Both the position numbers and the translations under genes were made by a program. This document shows positions 14,015-26,705 of a stretch of 51,455 nucleotides of DNA, in pieces. The stretch spans positions 1 to 51,455 of the forward strand of contig PEAK01000027.1 of assembly GCA_002753515.1 (NCBI GenBank). Reading direction: 5' to 3'. The notes beneath the pieces were generated by a model. It was not told the origin of the DNA and ran no database searches. It saw only the letters and a program-made list of their open reading frames with translations. This DNA comes from Magnetococcales bacterium (GTDB taxonomy: Bacteria; Pseudomonadota; Magnetococcia; Magnetococcales; UBA8363). Positions within the stretch are counted from its first letter, which is position 1, and every line of letters starts with the position of its first letter.

Positions 14015-15085
14015 ATGGCAGATGATGTCGATCAAGAATCACGTACCGAAGACCCAACTTCCAAACGGATGTCGGACGCCCGTGGCAAAGGTCAGGTCAC
14101 CACATCCAGAGAGGTGGGAACGGCTCTACTGCTTCTGGCCACAACGACGCTGTTCTTCTTTCAGGGTGAAAAGCTTTGGTTTGCGATGCAAAATAAAATG
14201 CGCTTTTTCTTGAGCGGTTTTATGAGCGACAGCATCCAACCCCAGGGAATCGTCGTCTTGTTGCAGGATATTATCGTCTCTTTTATCCTCGACATGGCCC
14301 CATTTTTCATACTCCTGATGATCATTGCCATTTTGAGTTCCACCATCCAGCACGGCTTCCTGATCACCATTGAGCCCATCATGCCCTCCTTCTCCCGGCT
14401 CAATCCAATTCAGGGCATCAAGCGTCTTTTTTCCTTCAAATCCATCATCGAACTGATTAAATCCATCATTAAACTGTTCATCATCTCCATTGCCGTCTAT
14501 ATCTCCCTTAAAAACAGCGCCTTGGAAATATTTGGACTCACAGATACCAATCTGGGACATGTCATCCGGGTCCTTGGCAATGATATTTTCCATCTGATGG
14601 TATTGGTAACCATCGCCTTTCTGAGCTTGGCAGTTGTCGATTTCATGTATCAGCAGCACGAATATATCAAAGGGCTGCGCATGACCAAACAGGAAGTCAA
14701 GGATGAGCAAAAGCAGATGGAAGGCGATCCGATGGTCAAAGGGCGTATCCGGCAGATTCAACGGGAAATGGCCCAGCGCCGCATGATGGAGGAAGTCCCC
14801 AAGGCTGACGTTGTCATCACCAACCCGACGCATTATGCGGCGGCGCTGCTCTACAAACAGGGCGAAATGGCGGCCCCCAAGCTGGTGGCCAAAGGGCGGG
14901 GACGCACTGCGGAGAGAATTCGGGAAATTGCCAGAGAAAACAAAGTTGTCCTGGTAGAAAACCCCCCATTGGCCCGCTCGCTTTACAGCGATGTGCCCCT
15001 GGATGCGGTTATCCCGCCGCAACTCTTCAAGGCTGTTGCGCAAGTCCTGGCCTACGTCTACAGCCTAAGGCGCAGCAGACGATGA
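14015..15085 (+). CDS. flhB: Flagellar biosynthesis protein FlhB
   Basis: FlhB (356 aa) is the substrate-specificity switch of the flagellar export apparatus. The N-terminal half has four hydrophobic segments. The cytoplasmic half carries the self-cleavage motif NPTH at Asn270-Pro271, with the typical NPTHYAAALLY surroundings. The N-terminus (SRTEDPTSKRMSDARGKGQV) is canonical. FlhA does not follow; instead the 3' end overlaps by 21 nt the 3' end of a minus-strand adaptor gene, so the operon ends here. Confidence 0.96.
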   Translation: MADDVDQESRTEDPTSKRMSDARGKGQVTTSREVGTALLLLATTTLFFFQGEKLWFAMQNKMRFFLSGFMSDSIQPQGIVVLLQDIIVSFILDMAPFFILLMIIAILSSTIQHGFLITIEPIMPSFSRLNPIQGIKRLFSFKSIIELIKSIIKLFIISIAVYISLKNSALEIFGLTDTNLGHVIRVLGNDIFHLMVLVTIAFLSLAVVDFMYQQHEYIKGLRMTKQEVKDEQKQMEGDPMVKGRIRQIQREMAQRRMMEEVPKADVVITNPTHYAAALLYKQGEMAAPKLVAKGRGRTAERIREIARENKVVLVENPPLARSLYSDVPLDAVIPPQLFKAVAQVLAYVYSLRRSRR

Positions 15086-15871
15086 GGGGGATGCGGCCTC
15101 AAACACCACGGGACCACTCATCCCCGGAATCAGATCCTCCTTGACGTCCAGCATCCTGGCCACAACCCGCACCGTCTGACCCGCCGGGTTGATGCGTCCT
15201 CCGATGTTCTTGACCTGGGCATGGTAACACCCTTTGGTTTCATCCAGCATCACAGCCACCCCGCCACCCATCTTGATCCCCGACAACAGGTTGGCAGGGA
15301 GAATCACATGTACCTCAAACGGGGAATTACCGACGATATCCAACAGGGGCTGACCCGCATTCACCGATTCAAACGGTTTGACCAAACGTTCGGCAACTCG
15401 TCCGGCAAAGGGGGCAGTAACGACACATTTTTCAACCTCGGCCTGCTGAATGGCCACTTCGGCCACAGCCCCCAGCCGTTCCGCCTCCAATAGTTCCACA
15501 TCCAAGGTGCTTGTTGAACGCAACTCCACCAACTTGCGATGCACAGTCAGACGTTGATTGATCCCCTCTAATTGCGCCTTAGCCTTTTTTAAACGCGCCT
15601 CCCGATCGGGACAATGAAACCGAACCAGGACTTCCCCAGCCTTGAAACTTTGGCGCAGTTCATGGCGAATCTCCAGGATACGCCCCGCCAACTCGCTGGA
15701 CAGGATGGCTTCCTGGGAGGCCACCAAAAGGCCGCGCAAGGATTCTCCCGCCCCGCTCTCATCCTGAAGCAAAGGCATTTTGGCACAGGGAAATTTCAAT
15801 TCGCCGGCCACTCCGCCCCCCCCTGCCAAAGCGGCGATCACCATCAGCGCAAATGCGAGAAATAGTTTCAT
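15065..15871 (-). CDS. Periplasmic adaptor (membrane fusion) subunit, HlyD/RND type
   Basis: This 268-aa protein has a signal peptide (MKLFLAFALMVIAALAGGG) and a compact membrane-fusion-protein architecture: a lipoyl/barrel half-motif (GRILEIRHELRQSFKAGEVL), a short alpha hairpin (about 90-150), then VTAPFAGRVAERLVKPFESV, the second lipoyl half. It is short for the family, with the membrane-proximal domain reduced. Its start overlaps the stop of the upstream TolC-like gene by 4 nt (ATGA), so the two are translationally coupled. No inner-membrane pump follows; the next gene (flhB) is on the other strand. Confidence 0.82.
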   Translation of the reverse strand: MKLFLAFALMVIAALAGGGGVAGELKFPCAKMPLLQDESGAGESLRGLLVASQEAILSSELAGRILEIRHELRQSFKAGEVLVRFHCPDREARLKKAKAQLEGINQRLTVHRKLVELRSTSTLDVELLEAERLGAVAEVAIQQAEVEKCVVTAPFAGRVAERLVKPFESVNAGQPLLDIVGNSPFEVHVILPANLLSGIKMGGGVAVMLDETKGCYHAQVKNIGGRINPAGQTVRVVARMLDVKEDLIPGMSGPVVFEAASPSSSAAP

Positions 15872-17403
15872 CCAGCCGCACCTGACACACGCATATTATC
15901 CAAGGATCCCCACTCCATCTCACCCGAACCCCAGCGACGAATCACCCCCTTCAGCATCGCGGTCAAGGCATCCAGATCACACACTTCAAGCTTTTCCGGA
16001 AGTGGGTCCATACCGATGGAAACAAAAATTTGACCGGCTGAATTTTGCAATTCGGCATAGGAAAGGCCCAATTGCAAGCGCCGGTATATCGCCCGTGCCT
16101 GCGCCTGAATCACATCCAAACCCGTCATGGTCTGACGCGCCTCATTGGAAAAGTGCTGAATCTTGTCAGCCGTTTCACTCATATTTTTGACCAGTTCATA
16201 CTCCTCCAACGTTTGATTGTAACGTATCAACGCCACATGAACCTGGGTCAAAATAGCCATCCCCATGGAAAGACGCCGCATATCCCCGGACTCTTCCCGG
16301 ATCGATGTCACTTTGAGGGAATCGCCACCTGCGGCCAAGTTGATCAAGTTCCAGGCCATCTTCAAACCACCATCCGCCCATTGTTTGTTGAACAGGAAAC
16401 TGTTGTCCGCCCCATGCACCCCCGCCTGAAAGCTCAACACTGGTAACGCTTGCAACAAAGTCGCCTTGGTCTCCGCCACATCGATCCTTTTTTGATAATC
16501 CTCCTCACGCAATTCAGGGCGGAAAAAGAGGGCCATCCGCTCCAACAGGTCGGTGTCATGGGGGACATTCGGGGTTGTCATGGCCTGCCGCTCCGGGACC
16601 TCCAGGCGAAAATCCTCCTTGAGATCCTGGTTCATCAAAGCGGCCAACTGGGTTTTGGCAACGGAAAGATCACGTTGCAACGTCACGATTTGATAGACTG
16701 TTTCCAACAGGCCCATACGGTATTTCAAGGTATCCAGCGGAGGTTGCAGCAAGGTATCCCCCGATTTTTTGGCATCTTCCAGGGCCAGGTTGGCCTCCGC
16801 CAAAAACGTGGCGATATCTGGCAGCAGCTCCTGGGCAACCACCGCCCGCCAATAGGCCTGCCGGACCTCCTGAATAATGTTTTGCACCACCTTGCGCCGC
16901 CGTTGCTCCGTCACCAGATAGCGATCCGCCTGCTGTCTGGCTTTGAAATAGCTGACGCCAAAATCCAATATATTCCATGTCATGGCCAAATCAACATCGC
17001 CATTGGTCCTGTCCGAGGAGGTCGAGTATTGCAGACTGGTATCACCGGTGAGCAACGAACGGCTGGAAGAACCCAGGGCATTGCTACGCCCGGTATAACC
17101 CGCCTGCAGCGTCACCTGGGGCAAAAGCTGATAGCCGGCCAACGTACTCTGTCCCAAGGAGAGTGCCGACTCCATGGTTTTAAGACGGTGGTCCAAATTG
17201 TAACGAATGGCACGCGCCATGGCCTCTTCCAGAGGGATGGCCCGGACGATCGGTTGCATATCTTTGTGGTAGCTCTCCCGATCCCCCTGGACCCGTTGCA
17301 AGGTGCTGGACAAGGGGAATGGTTCCGGTTTGACGGCGCAAGAGACGAGCAACGACGACAATACAACCAGCAGACACGTAACGCGAAGTGTAGACAATGC
17401 CAC
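15868..17403 (-). CDS. TolC-family outer membrane efflux lipoprotein
   Basis: This is a 511-aa outer-membrane factor of the TolC/OprM type. The N-terminus has a lipoprotein signal ending LLVSC, so it is probably lipid-anchored like OprM. Two repeated outer-membrane-efflux halves can be followed: the helical segments around RAIRYNLDHRLKTMES and RVDVAETKATLLQALPVLSF-like regions, each with long Gln/Ala-rich helices. Such proteins form the exit duct for tripartite efflux or type I secretion. Its coupling to the adaptor gene suggests one system; the energy-coupled component must lie elsewhere. Confidence 0.86.
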   Translation of the reverse strand: MALSTLRVTCLLVVLSSLLVSCAVKPEPFPLSSTLQRVQGDRESYHKDMQPIVRAIPLEEAMARAIRYNLDHRLKTMESALSLGQSTLAGYQLLPQVTLQAGYTGRSNALGSSSRSLLTGDTSLQYSTSSDRTNGDVDLAMTWNILDFGVSYFKARQQADRYLVTEQRRRKVVQNIIQEVRQAYWRAVVAQELLPDIATFLAEANLALEDAKKSGDTLLQPPLDTLKYRMGLLETVYQIVTLQRDLSVAKTQLAALMNQDLKEDFRLEVPERQAMTTPNVPHDTDLLERMALFFRPELREEDYQKRIDVAETKATLLQALPVLSFQAGVHGADNSFLFNKQWADGGLKMAWNLINLAAGGDSLKVTSIREESGDMRRLSMGMAILTQVHVALIRYNQTLEEYELVKNMSETADKIQHFSNEARQTMTGLDVIQAQARAIYRRLQLGLSYAELQNSAGQIFVSIGMDPLPEKLEVCDLDALTAMLKGVIRRWGSGEMEWGSLDNMRVSGAAG

Positions 17404-17495: not shown

Positions 17496-17774
17496 TCAGT
17501 GCATCTTGATGATGGCCGCAAGTGCGCCAAAACCCGCAATCATGAGCCCGCCAAGTTTAAAGGTGAGCCGGTATTCAAGCTCGCGCATTTCGGCTCTGAT
17601 TTCGCGCATTTCAGATTTAAGCACGGTAATATCGCCTTTGGTGGCCAAGTCGTTCAACTGTGACTCCTGGACCTTTTTAAGCGCCCCCACCATGCCTTTG
17701 GCTTGTGCGTCATCAAATCCAGAAGCCTTCAGTTCTTCAACAAATTCCAATGTGTCAAATGTTGCTGTCGTCAC
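17496..17774 (-). CDS. Small coiled-coil, membrane-anchored protein (DUF1640-like)
   Basis: This is a 92-aa protein with an N-terminal helical part (TLEFVEELKASGFDDAQAKG), a coiled coil (ITVLKSEMREIRAEMRELEY) and one C-terminal membrane helix (LGGLMIAGFGALAAII). This layout matches DUF1640/CCDC90-like proteins. GTG at 17774 is chosen because AAAGGAG lies just upstream; the frame is open to 17831 but without a ribosome site. The function is unknown. It lies between the Aas-like gene and the TolC-like gene on the same strand. Confidence 0.7.
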   Translation of the reverse strand: MTTATFDTLEFVEELKASGFDDAQAKGMVGALKKVQESQLNDLATKGDITVLKSEMREIRAEMRELEYRLTFKLGGLMIAGFGALAAIIKMH

Positions 17775-17836
17775 GGCTATTTCTCCTTTGTCTGAAGCAT
17801 ACCACAAAAAATCCCCCCTTTCGATTGCCAAACGAC

Positions 17837-19927
17837 TTAAGAGGATTCTCTGGTTTCACCTCCCTCCTCTATGACCAACTGAGCCAGTTTGACCCAATCC
17901 AACTTGCCCGAAGCCAATACCGGCAGACCATCGCAATAGATGAAACGCGAAGGCAGGAGCAATGAACTCAATCCCCGATTTTTCAAGGCTTGGGTGAACG
18001 ATTGCCGGGTCATGGTGCGGTCATCGGTCACCATCACCAGGATCTCTCCCCGCTTGGGATCGGCAATCGCCACCACCCCATGCAAACCATCCGGCCATGC
18101 GTCCGCCGCCACCACTTCCACCTGCGCCAGGGAAATCATTTCCCCGCCAATCTTGGCAAACCGTTTGCTGCGCCCCAGAATCCAGACAAAGCCCGCCGCA
18201 TCCACCCGCACCACATCGCCCGTATCGTACCACCCAACCCCCTCTTCGGCTTGCGGCGGCTGCACAACACCAGGATTGTCCTCCCGCACATAGCCCATCA
18301 TGATGTTGGGTCCGGACACCATCAAACCACCCCCTTCAACCACTCCCGGGATCGATCGCAAACGCCAACGCACCCCCGGCAGCAAACGACCCACACTCCC
18401 CGCACAATGCCCCTCCGGACCATTGACCGCCAGGACGGGTGCCGTTTCCGTTGCCCCGTACCCCTCCAGTATGCGAATGCCGAACTTTTCCATCCACAGG
18501 GTGCTGGTCGCGGCCCGAAGTGGTTCGGCCCCGGCGAAACAATATCTGATGGAAAGAAAATCACTGGGTTGCGCCATCCGGCCATATCCCCTGAGGAAGG
18601 TGTCGGTCCCAGCCAATACCGTAGCACCGATTTTCCACGCCAGTCTGGGAACGGCACGGTAATCCAAAACAGCTGGGTGACAATACACCCGCATGCCCGC
18701 CAGGAGCGGTGCCAATGTCCCCACCGTCAAACCAAAGGCGTGAAACATCGGCAGGACACTGAGCAGGGTATCCCGGGCACCCAGGTCAAAACGGGAAACG
18801 ATTTGCGTAACATTGGCCAGCAGGTTGGTGTGCGACAGAACGACCCCCTTGGGTGTCCCCTCGGAACCCGAAGTGAACAGCACGACCGCCGCCTCCTGCA
18901 TCTTATCCGCCACCCCCCGGGGGAAATGAGAGAAGAACCAAGCATGCAATAGCTTCCACGGAGTCACAGCGGGTCGCACATCTTCCAGGTAGAGGATGTC
19001 CAGACCGGTCATAGCGTCGATCACGCTGGAAAGATTGGCCTTTTGAACGAATTGCCGGGACGTGACAACCACCCTGATGCGGGCGATCCGACAGGTGGCA
19101 ACGATGGTGTTCGGACCCAGGGAAAAATTCAGCATGACGGGTGTCCGGCCACACACCTGCAAGGCAAAAAAAGTAAGCACCGCCCCAACGGTCGTGGGCA
19201 GCATGACCCCTACCCGGGTTTCCAAGCCGATGCGTGACTTAAGCAAGCCCGACAAAAGGATCACTTTGAAAAACAAACCACCATAGCCCAACCGTTGCCC
19301 CTGTTCGTCTTCCAGGATCACCCGACCTCGACCATGGCGGCGTGCCGCTCCAATCAACGCTTGCCAAACCGTTGCACCCAAAGATTGAGATGCCAGTTTC
19401 GCCCGCCCCAACCCCTCCTGTAAATGTCGCGCACCCTGGTCAACCTGCGACTTCAGAGTGACAACCGTCAGGTCAATTTTTGGCAACCAGCAGCGTTTGC
19501 TGTAGGTGGTATTGGGGGAAAAAGGCCAGCGTTCGCTGCCTTCCACGGCCATCACGCCACGGGGACAGGAAACGTCATAGGAGAGCGTGATGTTACGCAA
19601 CCAACCCGACGTCGGTGACAACGGCTCAGGGGAATAAACCACCGTGTGGCCATGATTGACCGCCTGGGCCAGGAGCAGCGGATCCACCCGTTCTTCGGCA
19701 ACGAAGTGGATCCAATGGCACCAGGAGCGGATCAGCTTGAACGGTACATCCCCTGCGGGCAGGATGATCCAGGATCCCTCGTTGAGAAAAGGCACCCAAA
19801 GCAACCAGTCCCACTTGGAAAACCGATTCGCCGCGATCAATCGGCCAGGAAGGTGTTCGAGGCCAAGGGTCCGGACGCGAAACACCCTCCTGATCAACCA
19901 GCGACTCACCGCATCACGCCGGATCAC
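17837..19927 (-). CDS. Aas-like acyl-ACP/acyl-CoA synthetase with degenerate acyltransferase domain
   Basis: This 696-aa protein has the architecture of Aas (2-acylglycerophosphoethanolamine acyltransferase fused to acyl-ACP synthetase). Residues about 1-200 align with the PlsC-type domain, but the HxxxxD motif reads NRFSKWD (His to Arg) and the PEG block reads SPEPLSP, so acyl transfer is probably lost. Residues about 210-696 are an intact AMP-binding enzyme: TSGSEGTPKG (P-loop), GYGATETAP, WYDTGD, GRSKRFAKIGGE and the C-terminal ASGKLDW lysine motif. A GTG start with a GGGGGG stretch upstream is used. It follows aspS by 42 nt. It may activate fatty acids only. Confidence 0.84.
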   Translation of the reverse strand: MIRRDAVSRWLIRRVFRVRTLGLEHLPGRLIAANRFSKWDWLLWVPFLNEGSWIILPAGDVPFKLIRSWCHWIHFVAEERVDPLLLAQAVNHGHTVVYSPEPLSPTSGWLRNITLSYDVSCPRGVMAVEGSERWPFSPNTTYSKRCWLPKIDLTVVTLKSQVDQGARHLQEGLGRAKLASQSLGATVWQALIGAARRHGRGRVILEDEQGQRLGYGGLFFKVILLSGLLKSRIGLETRVGVMLPTTVGAVLTFFALQVCGRTPVMLNFSLGPNTIVATCRIARIRVVVTSRQFVQKANLSSVIDAMTGLDILYLEDVRPAVTPWKLLHAWFFSHFPRGVADKMQEAAVVLFTSGSEGTPKGVVLSHTNLLANVTQIVSRFDLGARDTLLSVLPMFHAFGLTVGTLAPLLAGMRVYCHPAVLDYRAVPRLAWKIGATVLAGTDTFLRGYGRMAQPSDFLSIRYCFAGAEPLRAATSTLWMEKFGIRILEGYGATETAPVLAVNGPEGHCAGSVGRLLPGVRWRLRSIPGVVEGGGLMVSGPNIMMGYVREDNPGVVQPPQAEEGVGWYDTGDVVRVDAAGFVWILGRSKRFAKIGGEMISLAQVEVVAADAWPDGLHGVVAIADPKRGEILVMVTDDRTMTRQSFTQALKNRGLSSLLLPSRFIYCDGLPVLASGKLDWVKLAQLVIEEGGETRESS

Positions 19928-19969: not shown

Positions 19970-21790
19970 TCAGGCCGAATCCCCCTTGGGACGCACCACC
20001 CGGCGTAAGTACAACTCCCTGAGTTGTAGTTCGTCCACCTCCGAAGGGGCCTGGGTCAAGGCACAACCCGCCTTTTGGGTTTTGGGGAAAGCGATCACAT
20101 CGCGGATGGACTCCGAACCGAGCATGAGAGCCATCAAGCGATCCATCCCCAACGCCAAGCCACCGTGGGGTGGGGCACCATATTCCAAGGCTTGCAGCAG
20201 GAAACCGAATTTACGTCCCGCCTCTTCTTCATCGATGTGCAGAAGGGCAAGGATTTGCTTTTGCATCTGGGTATCGTGGATACGAATCGACCCCCCGCCC
20301 ACCTCAATGCCGTTGAGGACCAGGTCATAGGCGCGGGAACGCACCTGCAATAGATCATACACATCCGTGGATTGCAGGAGCGGCAGGTCTTCTGGAGACG
20401 GTGCGGTAAACGGATGATGTACCGATACCGGACGTTTGGCCTCGGGATCCCAATCCAGCAGGGGGAAATCGGTGACCCAGACCAGGGAGAACGGTTTGTC
20501 TTCGACCATGTTCAGGTCGCGACCCAGGCGCACCCGCAACCGTCCCAAGGATTCATTGACGATTTTGTGGGTATCGGCACCGAAAAACAGCAGGTCACCC
20601 GCTTCCACCCCGGTTATTTCCTGAATGGCCGCCTTTTCGGCAGCGGAAAAATGCTTGACGATCGGCGACTGCCAGCCATCCTGATCCCATGGACCGTTGA
20701 TCTTGATCCATGCCAAGCCTTTGGCCCCGTACACGGCAACAAAACTGCCATAATCATCAATCTGTTTGCGGCTCAAACGTTGCCCACCCCCGGGAACGCG
20801 CAACACCTTGATGACACCCCGTGGCCGACCGTTTTGATCAACACGGGTCTGGTCGGCGAACACCTTGAACCCGGTCTGCGCCATGATTCCAGTAATGTCC
20901 TTCAATTCCATCGGGATGCGCACATCCGGGGCATCCAAACCATAGCGCGCCATCGCTTCGGCATAGGTCATCCGCGGAATGGGTCTGGGGATCTCCAGGG
21001 AGAGGCAATGATGAAAAATGCCGGCAACCACCTGTTCGGTCAGCGCCATGACATCGTCCGGCCCGACAAACGACATTTCCAAATCCAGTTGGGTGAATTC
21101 GGGCTGCCGGTCGGCACGCAAATCTTCATCACGAAAACAACGGACAATCTGAAAATACCGATCATAACCCGAAATCATGAGCAATTGTTTGAACAATTGC
21201 GGGCTTTGCGGCAACGCATAAAATTGCCCGGGATTGACGCGACTCGGTACCAGGTAGTCTCGCGCCCCCTCGGGCGTGCTGCGTGTCAGCATGGGTGTTT
21301 CGATTTCCAAAAATCCCGCTTCGTCGAGAATGCGGCGCACCACCTGATTGGCCCGATGGCGGAATTGCAGATTTTTTTGCATTCTGGGGGTGCGCAGATC
21401 CAGATAACGATATTGCAACCGGACCCCTTCCCCAACATCGGCATCGTCCAGTTGAAAAGGCAACGGTTTGGAAACACTCAAGATGACCAGTTGCCGAACG
21501 ATGACCTCAATCATCCCCGTGGGCAGGTTTGGATTTTCCGTTTCCCGGGGACGACGTGCGACTTCCCCATGGATTTCCACGACGAATTCACTTCTGAGTT
21601 CATGGGCTTGACGGTGTACTTCCGCATTGTGTTCGGGGCTGAAGACCACTTGAACCAAGCCGGTGCGATCCCGCAAATCGACAAAAATCACCCCCCCATG
21701 GTCACGCCGGCGCTGCACCCAACCCATCAAACAAACACTTTGACCCAACAAATGGTCCCGAACATCATTGCAATAGTGGGTTCTGATCAT
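19970..21790 (-). CDS. aspS: Aspartyl-tRNA synthetase
   Basis: This is a class II AspRS of bacterial type (606 aa) with the OB-fold anticodon domain ([19 protein letters not shown]), motif 2 ([19 protein letters not shown]), the bacterial GAD insertion (about 290-410) and motif 3 ([15 protein letters not shown]). His31 in the RDHGG loop is a residue associated with non-discriminating AspRS, which also charges tRNA(Asn); this is only a hint. The start overlaps the stop of the SEC-C gene by 4 nt (ATGA), indicating coupling. Confidence 0.97.
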
Positions 21791-24797: not shown

Positions 24798-26705
24798 ATG
24801 GAACAATGGGGAATGAATACCATGTCCAAAAAAGCAAGTGTTTTAGCCTTGGCAGCAGCTTTCACCATCGGTATTGGTGCCTGCGGTGGCGGTGGCGGTA
24901 GTTCGTCGTCTTCGTCTGGAACCGTAGCCGGTGTCGCCATCGACGGTCCGGTGACCAGCGGTTCCATCATCGTCTACAACGCCGATGGGACAACCTGCTC
25001 TTCCGCCGCATCCTCGTCCGATTCCAGCGCCAAGTTCTCTTTGAATCTCGGCTCCTGTACCCTGCCGGTCTCCCTGGAACTCTCGGGTGGTACCGACGTT
25101 GTGCACAGCAGCTTGAGTTCGACCTATCCCCAGCCGAACATGCGCTCCCTCATCGGCTCGTCCACTCAGACCGTTGCCAATATCTCCCCCTTCTCGACCC
25201 TCATCTTCTATTCGATCGTCAAGGGTAACGGCAACAACCTGACCGCCGCCGGGGTGACCACCAGCAATGCCGCCAGCAGCATCACCACCCAGGCTTCGAC
25301 AATCCTGAAGGCCTTCGGTTTCGGTGCCGACCTGAACACGGATGGCAGCTCTGACAGCAATTTCAATCCCATTACCAGCTCCTTGGGCACCTTGAACCTG
25401 GCGACATTCACCAGCGCCAGTGAAGCCCTTTCCGAAACCATCCGTCGTGTCGCCAAAGCGGCTGGTGGTGTCAGCACAACCAACGTGGGTCAGCTCTTCA
25501 TTGCCCTCGGACAAGATCTTTCCGACGGCACCCTGGACGGTAGCATGGGAAGCTCCTCCATCAGCTCCCCGATCAGTGGCTTCAGCATGGATAGCGTTCG
25601 CGCTTATGCCATGTCCAATGCCCTGTTCGTGTTGAACGAAATGTTCTCTTCCACCGGTTTGACGGTCACTGACCAATCCGGCTCCCAGAAGTCGGCTCTG
25701 TCCGCCATCAAAACTGCGACAACGACTGTCAATTCCAGCGCCACGACCAGCTTTGACAGTGTGAAACCCAACACCAACCTCACGTCGCAATGGACGTCTG
25801 CCAAATCCACGGCGTTGACGTTGTTGGGTAAGAGTTCGCTGTCCGATCTCGGTATCAGTTCCGATCTGACGACCTCCGCCTCCATCAGCAGCCGTGGGTC
25901 CCTGTCCGTCAACTCAACCCTGGCAGCGGCTTTGGCCGATTCCAGTCAAGTGGCGACCTATTCGGCCAATGTGAAGAATGCCAACAACTCATTCGTCAGC
26001 TCCTCCACGTTCAACGTGGCACTCAGCTCCATCACGTTGACCGACTACCCGAGCAACACGGCATCCACCTTGACCCCGTCCACCCCTTCGGTCTCTTCCG
26101 GGGTATTGACGGTAACACTGCCGTCAGCGACCACCGTCAGCGCCTCCAATCTGGGTCTTTTGAATTCCACATCGGCCAGCACTGCCTCCGCTACACCGCC
26201 GGTATTGAATTTCACCCTGAAGAATCTCCCACAGGGTAGCGGTACCGCTGGGGTTACCATGACCCTTCTGGACGGCAGCAACAGCACCAGGGATTCCGGG
26301 GAGCGTTACATTTCCGCCACCTTCAATCTCCCCTGGACCAGTGACGGAACGACTCTGACCTTGAAGGATGCTTCATCCGCTTCGGTTTCTTACTATGCCG
26401 CTCCCGACTCCTCGGCCTCCAGCGCCAGTTTGTCGCAAAGTGCCGTGGGCAGCTTGGCAGTCACATCGTCTGGTGTGAGTGGTAATTCCAGCACCCAAAC
26501 CACCCTCAAGATGAAGATCGCGCAGTTGTTTAACACTGCTGCAACGAACGGGAATTCCACGTTGGCCAAAGCCATGACGTCCGGTACGCCCGCTGGTTCC
26601 TACTACTACTCGGTCAGTTTCAGCGGTATTTCCCTCGCTGCAACCGACTCCAGCAGCAATACGTCCGCCTTCAGCTCTGTGCAAGGTACCTTCACAGTCA
26701 AGTAA
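24798..26705 (+). CDS. Ser/Thr-rich surface lipoprotein of unknown function
   Basis: This 635-aa protein has a lipoprotein signal peptide ending IGAC (Cys29) followed by a Gly/Ser tether (GGGGGSSSSSSG). A beta-rich domain follows directly (GTVAGVAIDGPVTSGSIIVY), resembling carboxypeptidase-regulatory-like or Ig-like insertions. The rest is remarkably rich in Ser, Thr, Ala and Asn with few charged residues. The start has AGGAG 9 nt upstream. A strong terminator follows, so it is a single-gene unit with a long leader, suggesting high expression. It is probably an abundant outer-membrane or surface lipoprotein. Confidence 0.8.
   Translation: MEQWGMNTMSKKASVLALAAAFTIGIGACGGGGGSSSSSSGTVAGVAIDGPVTSGSIIVYNADGTTCSSAASSSDSSAKFSLNLGSCTLPVSLELSGGTDVVHSSLSSTYPQPNMRSLIGSSTQTVANISPFSTLIFYSIVKGNGNNLTAAGVTTSNAASSITTQASTILKAFGFGADLNTDGSSDSNFNPITSSLGTLNLATFTSASEALSETIRRVAKAAGGVSTTNVGQLFIALGQDLSDGTLDGSMGSSSISSPISGFSMDSVRAYAMSNALFVLNEMFSSTGLTVTDQSGSQKSALSAIKTATTTVNSSATTSFDSVKPNTNLTSQWTSAKSTALTLLGKSSLSDLGISSDLTTSASISSRGSLSVNSTLAAALADSSQVATYSANVKNANNSFVSSSTFNVALSSITLTDYPSNTASTLTPSTPSVSSGVLTVTLPSATTVSASNLGLLNSTSASTASATPPVLNFTLKNLPQGSGTAGVTMTLLDGSNSTRDSGERYISATFNLPWTSDGTTLTLKDASSASVSYYAAPDSSASSASLSQSAVGSLAVTSSGVSGNSSTQTTLKMKIAQLFNTAATNGNSTLAKAMTSGTPAGSYYYSVSFSGISLAATDSSSNTSAFSSVQGTFTVK

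Follow-up and report, generated by a model that had tools for sequence, protein, structure and literature searches.

Aas2: a paralogue of bifunctional Aas in the Magnetococcales, with a degenerate acyltransferase half

What does a bifunctional lipid-repair enzyme still do once the catalytic histidine of its acyltransferase half has been replaced? The question is raised by a gene in a stretch of 51,455 nucleotides from a Magnetococcales bacterium (contig PEAK01000027.1; this whole stretch is referred to as the window). In Escherichia coli, the synthetase half of Aas makes acyl-ACP and the transferase half hands the acyl group to a lysophospholipid (PMC11416262). The window gene, named aas2 here, has a GTG start and runs on the minus strand from 19927 to its stop codon at 17837-17839 (Table 1). 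It begins 42 bases downstream of aspS on the same strand, a G-rich, Shine-Dalgarno-like stretch lies 5' of the GTG, and in a relative with 95% identity (G001) the gene starts at the same position.

Table 1. Features of the aas2 locus and related loci. Coordinates refer to the window unless a locus handle is given.
Feature	Coordinates	Strand	Basis or remark
aas2	17837..19927	-	696 aa; PlsC-like and acyl-ACP synthetase halves; paralogue of Aas
PlsC-like half, residues 1-185, probably catalytically degenerate	19373..19927	-	No Pfam Acyltransferase match; AlphaFold2 model; fold match
HxxxxD slot, N34-R35-F36-S37-K38-W39-D40	19808..19828	-	Alignments; R and D the same in all eight genus members
PEG slot, S99-P100-E101-P102-L103	19619..19633	-	Alignments; all eight genus members have PEP
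Acyl-ACP synthetase (AMP-binding) half, residues 186-696	17840..19372	-	PF00501, E = 5e-59
Adenylation P-loop LFTSGSEGTPKGV, residues 350-362	18842..18880	-	Motif scan and invariant columns
Likely catalytic A10 lysine K675 (GKLD)	17903..17905	-	Conservation
aspS	19970..21790	-	NCBIfam PRK00476 above cut-off; immediately upstream of aas2
TolC-like outer-membrane efflux protein	15868..17403	-	Downstream; adjoins aas2 in 6/8 genus members
HlyD/RND-type periplasmic adaptor	15065..15871	-	Follows TolC in those 6 genomes
Glycosyltransferase (PF13524) loci before Aas2	L165 8152-9513; L169 8182-9525; L166 8076-9341; L167 4151-5410; L020 2390-3745; L123		

An Aas-type protein with an altered acyltransferase site

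Two NCBIfam models of Aas align to the protein, PRK06814 over residues 7-688 (665 bits) and PRK08043 over residues 8-688 (498 bits), neither of them reaching its equivalog cut-off (1349 and 886, respectively). The PRK06814 model covers 1140 positions of a protein fused from three parts, so the two-part Aas2 is not expected to attain its cut-off. The best NCBIfam model of a long-chain acyl-CoA ligase outside the Aas type yields 198 bits. Judged by these matches and by the tree of the synthetase half, the nearest relatives of the window gene are Aas-type enzymes and not FadD-type ligases. All adenylation motifs are present (TSGSEGxPKG, YGxTE, YxTGD, GRxKR and the catalytic lysine). Among 63 Aas and Aas2 sequences, T352, S353, G354, E356, P359, K360, G361 and G674 are invariant and K675 is kept in at least 90%; K675 presumably acts as the A10 catalytic lysine of the ANL superfamily. 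Going by its motifs, nothing is missing from the synthetase half, which is conserved.

The N-terminal half differs from that of intact Aas at the sites of acyl transfer. In an alignment with the intact Aas of the same genome (L113), R35 (codon CGG, 19823-19825) stands opposite the histidine of NHVSFLD and PEP stands opposite PEG; large alignments return the same pairing, with R35 on the catalytic histidine. The original paper on this conserved histidine is that of Heath and Rock (1998). Beyond these two sites, the spacing has changed: the distance from His/Arg to the proline of PEG/PEP is 65 residues in all eight members of the genus versus 68 in nearly all intact Aas, and from that proline to block IV it is 28 residues in the same eight versus 33 in all intact Aas. 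A 3-residue deletion between blocks I and III and a 5-residue deletion between blocks III and IV are thus common to the genus. The block IV proline is also missing from the window protein. The Pfam Acyltransferase profile, which recognises 53 of the 63 relatives, gives no match to the window N-half.

The original prediction had read N-R-F-S-K-W-D at the HxxxxD motif, with His replaced by Arg, and S-P-E-P-L at the PEG block. Both readings hold (residues 34-40 and 99-103), although S99 is private to the window species, the other seven genus members reading FPEP. Its statement that both key sites are lost needs a correction: the histidine and the PEG glycine are gone, while the aspartate of HxxxxD (D40) is retained. 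Likewise, the AMP-binding half is intact as predicted, whereas the length of the acyltransferase domain is not, with three plus five residues missing in 8/8 genomes. That the protein is a homologue of Aas whose acyltransferase half is disabled is supported by the Aas-model matches and the motif loss, together with a precedent in E. coli: the H36A substitution of Aas is reported to abolish lysolipid acylation (PMC11416262). From this precedent, we infer that Aas2 lacks acyltransferase activity.

Three simpler explanations for the altered site were rejected. A sequencing or assembly error behind R35 is ruled out because the change is common to eight genomes and the codon is CGG. An intact HxxxxD elsewhere in the N-half is ruled out by a motif scan, which found one HxxxxD in the whole protein, HPAVLD; it lies in the AMP-binding half (residue 417). 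An unrelated N-terminal domain is ruled out by the Aas-model alignment over residues 7-688, the profile matches and the PlsC fold match.

This fold match was obtained with a separate model of the N-half, since a fold search with the whole protein gave AMP-binding enzymes only. AlphaFold2 predicts the whole of Aas2 with confidence (pLDDT 89.4) and the N-half alone similarly (88.6). The best solved structure for the N-half model is PlsC of Thermotoga maritima (PDB 5kym; TM 0.64, E 1e-4), and the family profile, too, has this protein as its top match among PDB sequences (1.9e-19). A profile built from only the eight N-halves with arginine (the R form) has no match among PDB sequences; against the intact Aas of the window genome, it gives a match at 4e-9. 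Residues 99-122, following the PEP site, are modelled as coil without a helix.

Distribution and decay of Aas2 in the Magnetococcales

The placement of the window gene in a Magnetococcales paralogue clade, for which we use the name Aas2, is well supported by phylogeny. When the synthetase halves were placed in a maximum-likelihood tree, the clade received bootstrap/SH-aLRT values of 100/99 and the R-form genus subclade 100/100; a larger quick tree gives 99. E. coli Aas was included in alignments and trees for orientation, and no conclusion depends on it. A single Aas2 occurs in 35 of the 48 Magnetococcales genomes and an intact Aas in 28. Outside the clade, the combination of His, Asp and PEG is kept in 105 of 106 Aas (30 from the order and 75 of 76 from other bacteria), and the R/D/PEP combination in none of the 106. 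Seven further genomes of the same genus carry an Aas2 orthologue (59-95% identity), and R, D and PEP are found in 8/8, so that the arginine is indeed common to close relatives. A search of 398 genomes of the phylum with the R-form N-half profile returned the eight genus members at E < 1e-77 and all others at 1e-25 or weaker.

In the remainder of the clade, the transferase site has been altered in other ways. Families f9 and f5 have lost PEG and kept His and Asp, family f7 has ASG, PSG or PAG at the PEG position, genus g17 has lost the Asp, and family f12 has lost both His and Asp. One member (L019) keeps His, Asp and PEG and misses the Arg after PEG. In genome G022, Aas2 is a stand-alone synthetase whose ATG lies 3 bases past the stop of a glycosyltransferase-like frame; the N-half was looked for upstream and not found. 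In its close relatives L020 and L026, the same glycosyltransferase is followed by a full-length Aas2. At least one lineage can therefore do without the N-half, an argument against its being an essential sensor. Related genomes thus show the steps of decay: PEG first in many lineages, His in the window genus, Asp in another genus and the whole half in G022. As a separate observation, an in-frame TGA cuts the PlsC-like half off from the rest of Aas2 in L014 (G039:C3:38797-40899).

Intact Aas accompanies Aas2 in 8/8 genomes of the genus. The window genome, too, encodes an intact LplT-PlsC-ACS fusion elsewhere, and the window Aas2 is not fused to LplT. An LplT-like sequence is present in 26 of the 28 genomes with intact Aas and absent from 17 of the 20 without it (Fisher p = 3.8e-8), while LplT and Aas2 are independent across the 48 genomes (p = 0.52); these p values are a guide only, because the set includes incomplete drafts and genomes of shared ancestry are not independent points. 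Fourteen genomes, including the single-contig, 4.7-Mb G018, have Aas2 and neither Aas nor LplT, absences that rest partly on incomplete drafts.

The genes around aas2 (Table 1) were set aside as a clue to function because their order is confined to the genus, with different arrangements in other families. No RND pump gene was seen in the examined flanking stretch around the TolC and HlyD genes (15065-17403). Between the TolC gene and aas2, a small coiled-coil ORF (17496-17831, minus strand) is CCDC90-like, with PF07798 just below cut-off; about 320 bp are missing at this site in G001, which looks like a recent insertion or loss. Further along the window, a 635-aa ORF (24798-26705, plus strand) has relatives in the genus and no Pfam or NCBIfam match, and a DDE transposase gene (PF01609; 50020-51312, minus strand) lies near the contig end. 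In other lineages, a PF13524 glycosyltransferase gene lies directly 5' of Aas2 (families f5 and f12), a possible link to glycolipid or envelope synthesis, and in genus g17 two tandem FimV/HubP-like genes lie directly downstream of Aas2 (L163 2366-5906).

Possible roles of the retained half

Within the genus, the two halves evolve at different rates. The mean identity of Aas2 is 0.505 for the N-half versus 0.659 for the synthetase half, and the order is reversed for intact Aas of the same eight genomes (0.841 versus 0.766). In simple Nei-Gojobori counts, with dS near saturation for most pairs, dN/dS of the Aas2 N-half is mostly 0.2-0.4; this exceeds the synthetase-half value by a factor of about 1.5 to 2 and is well below 1. 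The faster N-half with a dN/dS below 1 indicates that catalytic constraint is gone and that some constraint remains. Around the old active site, R35, W39, D40, W41, P100, E101 and P102 are invariant in the genus.

Our preferred reading, to which we assign a probability of roughly 70%, is that Aas2 makes acyl-ACP without coupling this to the acylation of lysophospholipids, while its PlsC-like half persists as a scaffold or membrane anchor with no catalytic role. If the chemistry is that of E. coli Aas, Aas2 can only make acyl-ACP. It would load free fatty acids onto holo-ACP, driven by ATP, and, unlike E. coli Aas, would be unable to hand the acyl group to a bound lysophospholipid. Family placement and phylogeny are what point to acyl-ACP, and not acyl-CoA, as the predicted product. 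While acyl-ACP bound to E. coli Aas is normally not released (PMC5693948), that formed by Aas2 may be set free for other acyltransferases or fatty-acid synthesis, as with AasS and AasC. Lysolipid repair would be left to the LplT-PlsC-ACS fusion elsewhere in the genome, and the PlsC-like half may have been retained in most lineages as a structural or peripheral-membrane module. The distribution, in which LplT follows intact Aas and not Aas2, agrees with Aas2 as a maker of acyl-ACP only.

The original prediction had instead suggested that the dead half may be a membrane or lipid sensor tethering the synthetase. Such a half might control the synthetase, for instance by binding a lysophospholipid without acylating it. 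In favour of this idea, purifying selection acts on the retained half, its predicted fold is confident, residues at the old active site are invariant in the genus, and in E. coli the flippase LplT docks on Aas at the transferase half by a contact that survives H36A (PMC11416262). Nonetheless, LplT does not track Aas2, nothing was found that points to a ligand, the half is missing in G022, and the pocket motifs have decayed differently per lineage, which fits one conserved ligand poorly. We therefore regard this alternative as rather unlikely: its sensor part lacks support on these grounds, while a tether is possible given the PlsC fold of the half and the purifying selection on it. AUP1 was considered as an earlier example of an LPLAT domain without catalysis and dropped, as the AUP1 paper does not establish inactivity.

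Purifying selection and the invariant residues at the old active site also mean that the N-half may hold a more specific role than that of a scaffold. The genus-specific RxSRWDW...PEPLSP site may be a repurposed, non-acyltransferase pocket for a lipid or for acyl-ACP that regulates or positions the synthetase. We consider this unlikely; if true, it would make Aas2 an acyl-ACP synthetase under the control of a genuine pseudoenzyme.

Conversely, the N-half may be a functionless, decaying relic, kept merely through its in-frame fusion to a useful synthetase. Its divergence is faster than that of the synthetase half, its motifs were lost in a lineage-specific manner, and it is fully lost in G022 and separated by an in-frame TGA in G039. 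A dN/dS well below 1, the same block spacing and invariant motif residues in 8/8 genus members, and a well-folded model make such neutral decay quite improbable. Acylation of a different acceptor through a non-canonical Arg-Asp pair is very unlikely: R35, D40, E101 and P102 do not vary among genus members with as little as 59% identity, and D40 persists at a site that full decay might have erased, but the active-site histidine is absent, there are two deletions between the blocks, the half evolves faster than the synthetase half, other Aas2 lineages have lost Asp, PEG or everything instead, and H36A kills acylation in E. coli Aas (PMC11416262).

Comparison with known systems

Under the preferred reading, in which acyl-ACP synthesis is uncoupled from acylation, Aas2 presents a duplicated bifunctional lipid-repair enzyme whose acyltransferase half appears to have been put out of action by substitutions and not by removal. 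Members of the Aas2 clade are probably misnamed when annotated as 'acyl-ACP-phospholipid O-acyltransferase', and the clade may serve as a natural series for testing the need for the PlsC half in acyl-ACP synthesis and membrane binding. A literature search, with most subscription journals outside its reach, found no description of a dead transferase in Aas.

With bifunctional Aas of the E. coli type (PRK08043) and the LplT-Aas fusion (PRK06814), Aas2 shares the two-half architecture, the synthetase motifs and the family tree. It differs in having RxxxxD for HxxxxD, PEP for PEG, no block IV proline and the deletions of 3 and 5 residues, in lacking both fusion to and co-occurrence with LplT, and in scoring below both equivalog cut-offs. 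The N-half shares the PlsC/LPLAT fold of T. maritima PlsC (5kym), without the catalytic histidine and the PEG glycine, and the helix between blocks III and IV is missing in the model. AasS of Vibrio harveyi, AasC of Chlamydia and AasN are acyl-ACP synthetases without a coupled transferase (PMC11271967; PMC5693948), and Aas2 resembles them in its predicted production of acyl-ACP without coupled lysolipid acylation. AasC has been called a relic of bifunctional Aas (PMC11271967), and the PlsC-type protein of Chlamydia is separate (CT775; PMC5693948). In these three systems, the PlsC half is absent or a separate protein, whereas in Aas2 it is kept, apparently disabled by substitution, and gone only in G022. 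Most likely, Aas2 has thus converged with AasS and AasC in outcome by a different route, on which the transferase half was kept and disabled.
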